NCBI RefSeq assembly: GCF_963675165.1
Contig: NC_087383.1
Location: 434,001 to 498,000, forward strand
Source: Halichondria panicea
Lineage: Eukaryota; Porifera; Demospongiae; Suberitida; Halichondriidae
DNA: 64,000 bases
Direction: 5' to 3'
In this document: piece after piece, positions 1-17,257 of the stretch
Position numbering within the stretch: position 1 is the stretch's first letter
Layout: each line of letters begins with the position of its first letter
Position numbers and translations under genes: made by a program
Notes under the pieces: generated by a model
What the model was told of the DNA's origin: nothing
What the model saw: only the letters and a program-made list of their open reading frames with translations
Database searches by the model: none

Positions 1-257
1 ATATCTTGGAAATAGATCAAAAGAGAATTCGGGATTATTATTTGCACAATTTCCTTGAGCTCGTCTACAGTAAGTTTTTCAATTATAGATTTAAATTTAG
101 ATATTAGAATGTCAAACTTGCGCTGAATATCCCTTGTATCGTTGTTAGCTTCACTGGTATTGAGAGGGTAATTTATGTATCTAGCTTCATAGCAGCTACT
201 CCATGGATTAGTAGCTAGTCTAGATGCACTACTATCTTCTGCTTGTTTTACTTCCAT
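1..257 (-). CDS. Family A gene, 5' part, runs off the left edge
   Basis: The reverse strand is open from an ATG at 257 to position 1 without a stop (85 codons plus 2 nt), so only the N-terminal part of the protein is present. Its segment with RDIQRKFDILISKFK aligns by eye with TRNLQSDFDDLVERIK of the gene at 2750-3421 and TRDLQAKFDELMRMFK of the gene at 9522-10175, which places it in the same family. It lies 282 bp head-to-head from the plus-strand gene starting at 540, the same layout as the other pairs in this cluster. The function is unknown. The family resemblance is what supports it as real, since it is too short to rest on frame length alone. Confidence 0.6.
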   Translation of the reverse strand, partial: MEVKQAEDSSASRLATNPWSSCYEARYINYPLNTSEANNDTRDIQRKFDILISKFKSIIEKLTVDELKEIVQIIIPNSLLIYFQD

Positions 258-539
258 TTTTAAGGCTATGACCTACACAAAGAGAAGAAGCTTAAAGGTC
301 ACATGCATGCAATTGCTTAATTGAGGATATTCATAAGAAAACATGATCCACCCCATGTACATCTCATGGGACTACCATATTTATGTGCTGATGTTGTACT
401 ATGCATAACAGGATAACACCTGCTTGATGTGTGGGGATGAATATTGTTAACCTTTGTGTATTGGTAGTTATTTTGGCCTGCATATGGTATAGCTACTGCA
501 TTATTGGGATAAGCCGCTTGGCCTAGAGATCAGTTGGAG

Positions 540-1362
540 ATGGGGAATGTAAATTCGGGATCAACAACTCTGCACCAAAAGGTTTGTTATCAGGGTTTGT
601 CGATATAATTATATAGTTAATGTTGTTTTCTCTGTATAGCAGCTAGATGGCATACAGCTAGATGGCATACTGCTAGACGATGAGCTCTCGATCGCTACAA
701 AGTGCATTCAAGATCGTCATTCTCAGTTGATAAAAAAGCTTCTGTGTTCACTTTTCGAACACCTCGACTCGATTCACACAGCCCAGGAATTTCTGCTTTC
801 CCAACCGATGCATTCTTTGATAACTCACAAAGAGCGTACACACATTGTACATGCTCAGTCTTCTCAAGAATTGCTGGAAGTTTGCTCTGGAAAGTTCAGG
901 TGGTACGATAGCATGGCACTGGAGGAGCTATTTGAGTTCATTCAAAGAAATGAATTAGAAATGAAGATGAAGCATCTAAAAGATGAAATTCTTCTGGTGG
1001 TTCGCCAGTTTTTTGAGGAACATGGTCGAATCATCAAGGATCCCTCGAGTGGTTGCACTATAGTTATGGTGGACTCTTACTTAAGACAGAGTGATTCTGA
1101 TGAGTGTATGATGTACAAGCTCTACCATTTGGCATCAGGTGCCTTAGCCCTGAAGAATGATAGTGCGCTACAACTTCAAGACACACAGCTCAAGAAAGAT
1201 TTGACACCACCAAATGATTCCTGCATTGGTAATGATCATGTTGGAAAGCTGCCGACGAGAATCCAGCACAAGACAAGTCTGACCAAGAGTAGGCGTTCTG
1301 ATAGGAGTTCGACAGGAGACTCACTCTCAGATGTTGATATTGACGAACTAACCTCTACATAA
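540..1362 (+). CDS. Family B gene of the paired cluster (unknown function)
   Basis: Two exons are inferred: 540-581 (14 codons from ATG) and 640 or 643-1362, joined in phase 0 (253-254 aa). The splice position matches family members at 3801 and 10566. The acceptor is a tandem NAGNAG site (tagcag at 637-642), so one Gln may be optional. The protein has a helical N-terminal half, a K-F-R-W-Y-D motif matching KFQWFN of the 3801 gene, and a GRIIKDP segment matching GRLIIDP, then a Ser/Arg-rich tail. A short LDGI repeat near the start comes from a 15-bp duplication at about 641-674. It is the most diverged family B copy. The function is not recognised. Confidence 0.6.
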
Positions 1363-1499
1363 TTCCATTACATGATTGTATAATACTTTCTATATGCTGG
1401 GTGTCCAACTGTATATGTATATATGTGTGTCATAAACGATATGAAAATATGTATCAAGCAAATTGTGCAATTATAACATTCAGCATGAAAAATAAAATC

Positions 1500-1805
1500 G
1501 TAGAGTCCACAAGACACACCACACAGAGAGAACACACACACACAACCGGTCACATCCACTTGTTCAGTGAACTTGTCCTGACAAGCCATGTGTATCCTCT
1601 CACAGGTGGCAGGGCTGTCCAGTCGATAGTAGCCACTCACTTCACTTTCTGCCCGTGCAGCTGTGACGAGTGTGATGGCCTCCCTCATGCATGCAGGGCA
1701 GCCCCGCCATCTGTGAAAGGATACGCATGGCTCCCCTCCAGATATACACACTGCTCCAGGGTCACCAGACCAAGGCCCTGCATGTGTAAACACTCCCTCT
1801 ATTCC
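1500..1805 (-). pseudogene. Xanthine dehydrogenase 3' fragment 1 (exon 24 plus part of 23)
   Basis: The reverse strand matches the terminal exons of the two intact XDH genes: the exon 24 region encoding the [17 protein letters not shown] stretch is at about 1558-1700, followed by part of exon 23 at about 1735-1802. The reading frame is broken by small insertions near 1670, and part of exon 24 is replaced. It lies tail-to-tail with the family B gene ending at 1362. Five such fragments occur, always on this strand and always after the plus gene of a pair. Confidence 0.8.
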
Positions 1806-14183: not shown

Positions 14184-15860
14184 ATCAAGTATAAACTAGT
14201 ATTATAGCACTCGTGCAGGGTACAATAGAGATCACTCGAGGTCAATATCAAGCTTACCTATAATTATGACAATGTGTAATATGATCTTGATTTTTGTAAT
14301 TGATACTATTACAGCTAGATCTGTATGACCTCATGTTCTGTATGACCTCATGTAAATGCCACAGGCACTTTTAACAGTCTGACACCATTACCAAGGGTGT
14401 ACAAAACATATCTTCTCTTCCCTTTATACGCCCTTGATAATACTAAATCCTTATTATAGTTGCTTGAGAAGCTAATTCAAAAGCTAAATCTATACTGCTA
14501 TATAGATTCATTGTCACCACTTCAACCATATAGCTCAATAGACCTATATAACCTAGACAGAGGGTATATAATAATTATAAGTGGTTAAATCTTGTAATTG
14601 TGCACAGAATTAATAGTGGGATGTGCCAAGAAAGAAGTATAATAGTAACTGTATATAAATGCTCGCGGTCATGATTGTATTATACCCACGACTTCAATCA
14701 TGCATATACTGCAAAAGGCTGCTACAGTGTAGACTTTTTTGTTAATCCAGCCACCCTTGGGACAGTGCAGCTTGACCAGAATAGCGAGGTGGCTGCATGT
14801 CAGAAATATCTGCAGCTAAAAAACGACCCTACCTCGCATCTAATGACTAATTTTGCGGTGCAGTCTCAATCGTTATGCTTAGCCTCGATCCCAGGCCGCA
14901 CTAACTATCATCAGCAGGTAGATCACATTCACATTCACATTCAGGGAAGTGGGAAGGGGAGGCTATACATTGTGTGCTCTCTATACATTTAACCAATTTT
15001 ATCTGCCAAACCACATCCAAAACGTCATAAACCTGGTTTGGGGCAGCCCAGGGCAAGTTTATGCAGTAAACATCTGCTAACAATCTGTTCCAAACCAAAT
15101 GGCTGGTGTATCGAAGTGGCCGTACTTCAGACAGCGGGAATAGCAAGAGACTACCGCAAAACTTAAATCCATGAAAACCTCTCTAACGATCTTTCCGCGA
15201 AAGTTTATACCCTCGAAATATACCTGCTATAAGGTATACTAATAGGTGCTCTAATAAATGAATATCTTGCGGCTTTGTTTATGTGCATGCAGTGTATAGG
15301 TCAAAGGTCATGCATAACGGATAAGCTAACACTTTCTGAAATTGCTAAACTTGGGGTTAAAGTCGATCTTATATAAAGGCTTGCAATGACGTGACATTCT
15401 GAGATTGAGTTCCTTCAGTGCTCCTGTTTACAACATTTTTCATTAAGACTTAATTATTATAATTATGTGTGCTAGATCTGCATTTGTGAGGTTGATAACA
15501 GGCTGACATGCATCAATAACAAATCTTGGTAAGCTCAAAAATGAGATTTATACACTACTCTTTGTCACATGTGGCCTAGTGGGGAAACATTCTTGTACTG
15601 TTACCCTTTTTACAGGTTTTATAATTGTCATAATTATCTGTCACCAGGAAGTTACCAAAGCCATATAAATACCAACCGCATGCATGGTTGCTTTTATATG
15701 GGCGTAGCTGCACTAGCAGTATAGGTCTACTATAGAGATTAGTGGAGTCAATTCAACAGCTAGCGTTGGTCTACTCTCTGCTGCTAGCATTTATTTAACT
15801 GGCTCAGTACTGAAGAAAGACAGAAGGTAAGTCATTGGTTGTCTAGAGCTATAGTGGGGA
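14184..15860. other. Intergenic DNA, no gene seen
   Basis: It contains a single arm of the CTCGATCCCAGGCC repeat near 14885 and an inverted-repeat fragment near 15170-15235 (CCGCGAAAGTTTATACCCTCG, then AAGGTATAC) of the CCGTATAGC family. No coding or RNA signal is supported. Confidence 0.4.
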
Positions 15861-16059
15861 CTATTTTTTACATATTTTGTACATATCAAGACAGTTAACA
15901 AACAGAAACACAATTTCATCTTTGTCCGAGTTATTTGTACCTCGGAGCAGCAACTCTATATAATTATATTAGATTTAGTTAGACAAATTGAATAGTAGAG
16001 TCTTACTCACCTTTTCTTTTGACAGTAGAAACAGGGAAAAAAGACACTCTTATATACAT
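15861..16059 (-). pseudogene. Truncated A' gene fragment (left partner of pair 5)
   Basis: The reverse strand from an ATG at 16059 reads an exon 1 ending in VSTVKRK, a GTGAGT donor, an ATATAG acceptor, then ELLLRGTNNSDKDEIVFLF, matching the start of the gene at 5792-6521. After about 60 codons it meets a stop at 15861-15863, and the remaining two thirds of the gene are absent. It is head-to-head with the family C gene at 16415. Confidence 0.75.
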
Positions 16060-16414
16060 GATACTCTTCTCTGTGTAAGAAAGAATACTGGTATAAATGC
16101 CCGGCGCCCACTGACAACTTAACTACATGTATTTGCTGGAGGTATGTACATGTGTACGTATGTAGCTAAAGGTCGCTATTATGGATAATTACGATAGGGG
16201 ATAAAATAAACACTGAATCACGTTCACACTGACAACGGTTACCATGAAAACTGTTGTGACGTAGTAGTTTCCGAGGTAGTTTTCTACTCTTATTATTAAT
16301 TTTTACTACAATTAATTGATTTTATACTGGCACATTAGCTACTATTAAAGTTGCAGCTTCATCCCAAAAGTAATTTGCATTGGCTACCACTGAACCTGAA
16401 GAACCTTATTTAAT

Positions 16415-17257
16415 ATGGCAGTTGATACTCATTTAAGCTCAACTGAGGGTTGCCACAGTGAGACAGGTAAGTATTATTAAAATAATTCTAGACAGTTTCA
16501 GTATCTTCCTAATACAAAATTTATATATACTATGTCTCATTGCTATCTTATATAATGTTTATGAGTGTGTTCACTATTAAATTAGTAATGTTTATGTGTG
16601 TTCACTTGTTTTAATGCAGAAAGCCAACTAGTTGTCCTTAAAAGTCTCAGTATTGAACTGATTCAGCAGGGTCCAATCGATAATGAACGAGCTAAAGATA
16701 AGGCTCTCTCCCAAGAGTTCCGTCATGTGTTTGGCATAAAAGAACGCAAGATCGTGCTGGCAGCAGCAGCTAATAAATCTCTCTCTGATGGCTTCTTGAA
16801 GATAGTTAAAGGATACGATTTTGTTCCACCTTTGATTGAGTTTCTCAAATTTCTAAAGATATTCTTTGACGATTTTAATATTCTGGAAAGTATTAACCAG
16901 ATTGACAAGATTTTTCAAAGGTTTGATCTAGTCCCAGAGTATTCATTAAATAATATGAAACAAATCACTACATGTACTGATTTTGATTTTAAACAGACAG
17001 AAGTTGTCACGACGCCTAAATTGGATATCACGGCAAATATTGTTGATTCTTCCCAAATCACTGATTTGTCGTCTCTGTCTATCTATTCGAGGAGTAGTGA
17101 TTCTTTTCAAGTATCCTCTCAGCTCAATGCACCCATATTGCTTCCATCTAACAGCGAGTTAGTTTGTACTACATCATTGATACCTCATCTGGGAGAAAAA
17201 GACGAGTTGGTCGTTGGCATCGCTTTACCTATTTTTACACCGATGCTCAACCGCTGA
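16415..17257 (+). CDS. Family C gene, second copy
   Basis: Exons 16415-16466 and 16620-17257, phase 1 junction, 229 aa. It is the paralogue of 6977-7779: SLSIELIQ, ERKIVLAAAANKSLSDGFLK, RSSDSFQVSSQLNA and GEKDELVVGIALPIFT are all kept, while the linker and the segment around residues 70-110 vary. The intact frame, retained splice sites and conserved C-terminal block suggest selection even though its divergent partner gene is broken. Function unknown. Confidence 0.7.

Follow-up and report, generated by a model that had tools for sequence, protein, structure and literature searches.

Introduction

In plants, NLR immune receptors occur as head-to-head pairs that are divergently transcribed and co-inherited, and in vertebrates DED-only proteins as well as the two-domain protein DEDD2 are thought to tune assemblies. 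To our knowledge, DEDD2/FLAME-3 is not encoded by paired genes. In the sponge Amphimedon, the combination of a death fold with TRADD-N is hugely expanded according to passages of Kaur et al. (2021; PMC8195603), where TRADD-N is also proposed to bridge and restrain its flanking domains. Here we analyzed a 64 kb stretch of the genome of the sponge Halichondria panicea (C7:434001-498000, contig C7 being NC_087383.1; hereafter the window), in which positions 1-17257 hold five blocks, each with a minus-strand gene of family A or A' opposite a plus-strand gene of family B or C. We lean toward reading these minus/plus units as stand-alone intracellular pairs that serve a death-fold/TRADD-N network as adaptors or decoys.

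The NCOA6-clade TRADD-N proteins of Amphimedon, as portrayed in parts of PMC8195603, likewise place an RRM-like TRADD-N domain after one or more Death-like helical domains, and show a large lineage-specific expansion and fast evolution, as here. Whereas a variable C-terminal region (with ankyrin, SH3-LRR or other parts) comes after these domains in most of their architectures, the dyad stands alone and head-to-head in Halichondria, and the proteins of family A and of its counterpart D on contig C15 stop after strand β3; the comparison is one of descriptions and implies no clade membership. Paired stand-alone TRADD-N genes are not reported in the portions of PMC8195603, PMC4773876 and PMC12909245 that we drew on. 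DEDD2/FLAME-3, described in a section of PMC8195603 as DED plus TRADD-N, is small and without an effector like the proteins studied here, a likeness that carries no claim of membership. Basic tails in B2 and B4, as judged by eye, could be nuclear signals and thus extend the comparison with DEDD2/FLAME-3. Plant NLR pairs share the divergent layout, but their proteins are unrelated and much larger receptors.

Results

An indication that the units are old came from a second, unlinked locus. In a search of the genome (131 Mb in 39 contigs), the protein A'3 weakly matched contig C15 (E 0.45), where a 167-aa minus-strand frame (D1) lies opposite a 241-aa plus-strand frame (E1); searching with D1 and E1 revealed a further pair, D2/E2, about 6 kb away. 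The C15 spacers measure approximately 280 bp and at most 421 bp. When pooled profiles were compared, the like pairs scored 49.9 (A-D) and 34.9 (B-E), values reached by none of 200 column shuffles in either case, whereas the crossed pairs were weaker, at 21.7 for A-E (2 of 200 shuffles equally good) and 16.5 for B-D (26 of 200). Searches with hmmsearch, controlled by 2000 shuffles of which we counted those that scored equally well, gave a similar picture. The A profile found D1 and D2 at 30 bits (0/2000), and the B profile found E2 at 15.1 bits (0/2000) and E1 at 7.9 bits (2/2000). In the reverse direction, the D profile recovered A2, A4 and A'3 (0/2000 each) and, weakly, A1 (12/2000), and the E profile recovered B1 and B4 (0/2000 each) but not B2 (285/2000). 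The crossed tests failed, both for the B profile on A2, A4 and A'3 and for the A profile on B2, B4, C3 and C5. By now the proteins of the two unlinked loci have diverged to 17-28% identity.

This strand-specific correspondence of A with D and of B with E suggests that the A/B two-gene unit is probably older than either array; the alternative would be that similar pairs arose on two occasions. The proposal of the preliminary description that pairing was kept through duplication is borne out and extends to C15. Because the copies in both arrays carry pieces of the next-door gene, those of one array do not count as independent observations; noteworthy is that partners correspond specifically at two loci, a head-to-head pair being unremarkable in itself.

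We next asked what the proteins are. Families A, B and C had been described as orphans, a view that does not hold for A. Domain X, of about 195 aa, has 133 matches in the genome at E<=0.1 and 106 at E<=0.001, and a profile built from X copies, with the cluster excluded, matched A2 (1.5e-12), A4 (2.6e-12), A'3 (8.8e-9) and A1 (3e-4), the best of 1000 shuffles reaching 0.036. For D1 and D2, 1 and 2 of 2000 shuffles, respectively, were equally good against the X profile. At the sequence level, these matches establish A and A' as divergent copies of domain X. For B and E, the pooled X-BE profile comparison scored 36.8, while the best of 200 column shuffles scored 21.9. This moderately supports their membership in X, so that B, too, is probably no orphan. 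Family C is less tractable: shuffles were equally good in 114 of 200 cases for X-C, 55 of 200 for BE-C and 1 of 200 for AD-C, and none of 200 was as good for B-C, but there by a margin of only 0.1; C is possibly a plus-strand partner of the B/E kind. Queries of the A, B and C types hit only cluster genes, C15 genes, the remnant of A'5 or X copies, besides a very weak match on contig C12 (E 2.0).

Domain X itself looks like a death-fold helical bundle with an RRM-like TRADD-N domain behind it, an assignment with moderate support. Eight of 17 X copies matched the TRADD-N family PF20694, below its cut-off, and all 8 genome matches of PF20694, likewise below cut-off, fell on X copies. The uS site, a tiny residue plus Ser/Cys in the β2-β3 turn, reads GC or SS in each of the 17 copies. 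Among fold matches, the PEA-15 DED was the top, though tied, hit of A2 residues 66-155, and pyrin domains were among those of B2; neither an RRM-like part nor a paired gene is known to us for PEA-15 and the pyrin-only regulators. Foldseek returned 618 matches for A2 at E<=10 and none at E<=0.001, and TRADD was not among the matches listed, which excludes nothing. A sequence search of the PDB gave no match for the X profile and three for the A+D profile (best E 0.13), and Pfam found nothing above cut-off in the A, B and C proteins. Compared with X, the A and D proteins keep β1-α1-β2-β3 and end shortly thereafter, without the α2-β4 end; by eye, B and E seem to be truncated as well. Neither by eye nor with Pfam did we see a receptor part, an enzyme part or anything evidently membrane-bound in the proteins, and by eye the spliced models showed no signal peptide or membrane segment.

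Exons encoding Death- or CARD-like domains and ankyrin repeats lie near X in the few copies whose flanks were scanned, a proximity of exons that does not imply a shared gene. A caspase-like reading of exons near X on contig C8 was dropped, as Pfam gave it no support. Frames near X exons (L042:1209-1616, L043:6006-6365, L046:1527-1865 and L047:5944-6414) carry a D(V/I)ExNPGP end after a hydrophobic stretch. For this motif, which we take to be 2A-like, a literature search turned up no clear lead.

Several observations weigh against the adaptor or decoy interpretation. None of the A, B, C, D and E proteins matched PF20694, and by eye the uS motif is not present in A1, A2, A4, A'3, D1 or D2. For X-BE, the hhalign probability was only 56%, and hmmsearch with the X profile found no individual B or E protein. 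Finally, the divergent layout, which had been taken as a sign of co-function, is weak evidence on its own: a passage of PMC4773876 gives 45% of Amphimedon genes as head-to-head, 11,379 of them with start sites within 1 kb.

These figures also favour another explanation, namely ordinary tandem duplication, in which A and B became neighbours by chance in a compact genome and were copied together with pieces of the next gene, the partners being functionally unlinked. Consistent with it, the same exons of a neighbour accompany each of the two C15 copies. On C7, partial copies near 1.5, 5.2, 8.4-8.9 and 11.9 kb (minus strand), between the pairs, resemble 3' exons of the neighbouring gene at ~17.7-43 kb (minus strand), which is of the xanthine-dehydrogenase type; none of the three such stretches that were scanned had a Pfam match. 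The spacers, too, have little sequence in common, apart from those of pairs 3 and 5 (P3/P5), which are copies of each other, and A'5 decayed while C5 stayed open. Against this stands the fact that minus genes match minus genes, and plus genes plus genes, at an unlinked locus, with A-D and B-E far above the crossed pairs. Moreover, no unpaired A- or B-type gene was among the matches, whose counts are lower bounds for these queries, even though domain X itself is widespread. We therefore regard chance duplication as possible but doubtful.

The arrangement of the pairs follows from the sequence and the exon models, in which GT..AG fits the splice sites of the spliced genes, and the B, C and A'3 genes each have a short initial exon with plausible splice sites. 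In pair 1, the 5' part of A1 (<1-257, minus strand) belongs to a gene that reaches beyond the window to C7:433634, with a 217-aa open frame in locus L012, and is separated from B1 (540-1362, plus strand; exons 540-581, inferred from sequence, and 643-1362) by 282 bp (258-539). Pair 2 comprises A2 (2750-3421, minus strand), a single exon encoding a helical bundle and an RRM-like part that ends after β3, and B2 (3801-4677, plus strand; exons 3801-3866 and 3991-4677), encoding a helical bundle, a β-α part and a basic tail, 379 bp apart (3422-3800). Pair 3 joins A'3 (5792-6521, minus strand; exons 6467-6521 and 5792-6414) across 455 bp (6522-6976) to C3 (6977-7779, plus strand; exons 6977-7028 and 7139-7779), whose C-terminal half is Ser/Thr-rich. 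In pair 4, the single-exon A4 (9522-10175, minus strand) faces B4 (10566-11470, plus strand; exons 10566-10610 and 10712-11470) over 390 bp (10176-10565). These four spacers are putative shared promoters.

Four pairs are intact. In pair 5, 355 bp (16060-16414) separate C5 (16415-17257, plus strand; exons 16415-16466 and 16620-17257) from a stump of A'5 (15861-16059, minus strand), in which exon 1 joined to the start of exon 2 gives 47 codons and then a stop; DNA similarity to the A'3 gene is confined to 6299-6354 and 6463-6490. The originally described five facing pairs, at 0.28-0.46 kb, thus stand in layout and spacing, as do the A genes beside B in pairs 1, 2 and 4 and A' beside C in pair 3, whereas pair 5 has no intact A'. 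As a common promoter motif we considered TGACGT, which occurs in 4 of 7 spacers (P2-P5), but with 20 strand hits in 64 kb, and with P3 and P5 being copies, it was not relied on.

Other features of the region include a 251-aa frame of the NNMT/PNMT/TEMT methyltransferase family between pairs 4 and 5 (12002-12757, plus strand; PF01234, E 2.8e-34), exons of the large minus-strand neighbour at ~17.7-43 kb that match MoCoBD_1, MoCoBD_2 and Fer2_2 in Pfam, and a long CA/TG simple repeat at 32.8-33.3 kb that is open in several frames. To the left of the window, L041:5077-5796 (plus strand) is an open frame of ~3.5 copies of a ~66-residue repeat.

We then considered coding constraint. BLASTP identities are 74% for A2/A4, 43% for B2/B4, 71% for C3/C5, 31% for A2/A'3 and 26% for B1/B2. 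The ratio of nonsynonymous to synonymous divergence (dN/dS) was 0.45, 0.40 and 0.67 for A2/A4, B2/B4 and C3/C5 with NG86, and 0.49, 0.25 and 0.73 with YN00. In neutral simulations, the probability of encountering no stop was 0.016-0.020 for A2/A4, 0.0005 for B2/B4 and 0.11-0.12 for C3/C5, and changes between C3 and C5 fell on the three codon positions as 28, 34 and 36, without a clear third-position excess. Hence coding and constraint are apparent for A and B but less clear for C. Along A2/A4, dS is 0.92 in aligned codons 0-60 and 0.26-0.35 in codons 60-180, with 1.0 for B2/B4; gene conversion of the C-terminal part of A2/A4 is possible.

These values bear on whether the frames might be no genes of their own but pseudogenes or leftover exons from large X-domain genes. 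The shortness of the proteins, which lack flanking domains, the broken A'5 and the figures for C would fit such an origin. It is at odds with the dN/dS values (NG86) and the improbably open frames of A and B, with the genes' own start codons and spliced short first exons, and with the truncated end that A and D share across two loci. We consider it unlikely.

Discussion

We propose that the blocks arose by copying of an old unit of two genes, which encode small stand-alone relatives of X. The minus partner (A, A', D) would comprise a helical part and β1-α1-β2-β3, followed by the stop, and the plus partner (B, E, possibly C) a helical, death-fold-like bundle, a β-α part and a tail. A shared promoter would serve both genes, such that the partners are made together, and their products may form hetero-complexes inside the cell. 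Because the proteins lack receptor or effector domains, the most economical interpretation is that they act as adaptors or decoys, tuning assemblies of larger X-domain proteins; a shortened copy on its own could act as a competitor in TRADD-N contacts or as a seed for them.

The preliminary description had suggested immunity or self-recognition. A role in immunity or cell death is still the best guess, since A belongs to a domain family resembling death fold plus TRADD-N, but nothing points to self-recognition. Linked, paired and diverging genes would also be expected of a toxin/antidote-like or self-recognition two-component pair. However, the domain content is adaptor-like rather than surface-receptor-like, no membrane or secretion signal was seen by eye, and the survival of C5 next to a broken A' argues against A' being an antidote; such a system thus appears very improbable.

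More tentatively, and with considerable doubt, the adaptor pairs might represent an obligate split of the TRADD-N module into two genes. Given that A and D end after β3 and that B and E appear truncated by eye, it may take a heterodimer of the partners for one sheet to be completed or capped. If true, the split module would parallel, in an animal, the sensor/helper immune gene pairs that plants carry head-to-head, and would have been kept as a unit at two unlinked loci. More generally, the A/B pairs could be an example from animals of immune-type genes that are paired in a way comparable to plants. Sponges have very large, little-studied sets of death-fold/TRADD-N proteins, and a small paired version would offer a compact, testable handle on how this network is regulated.
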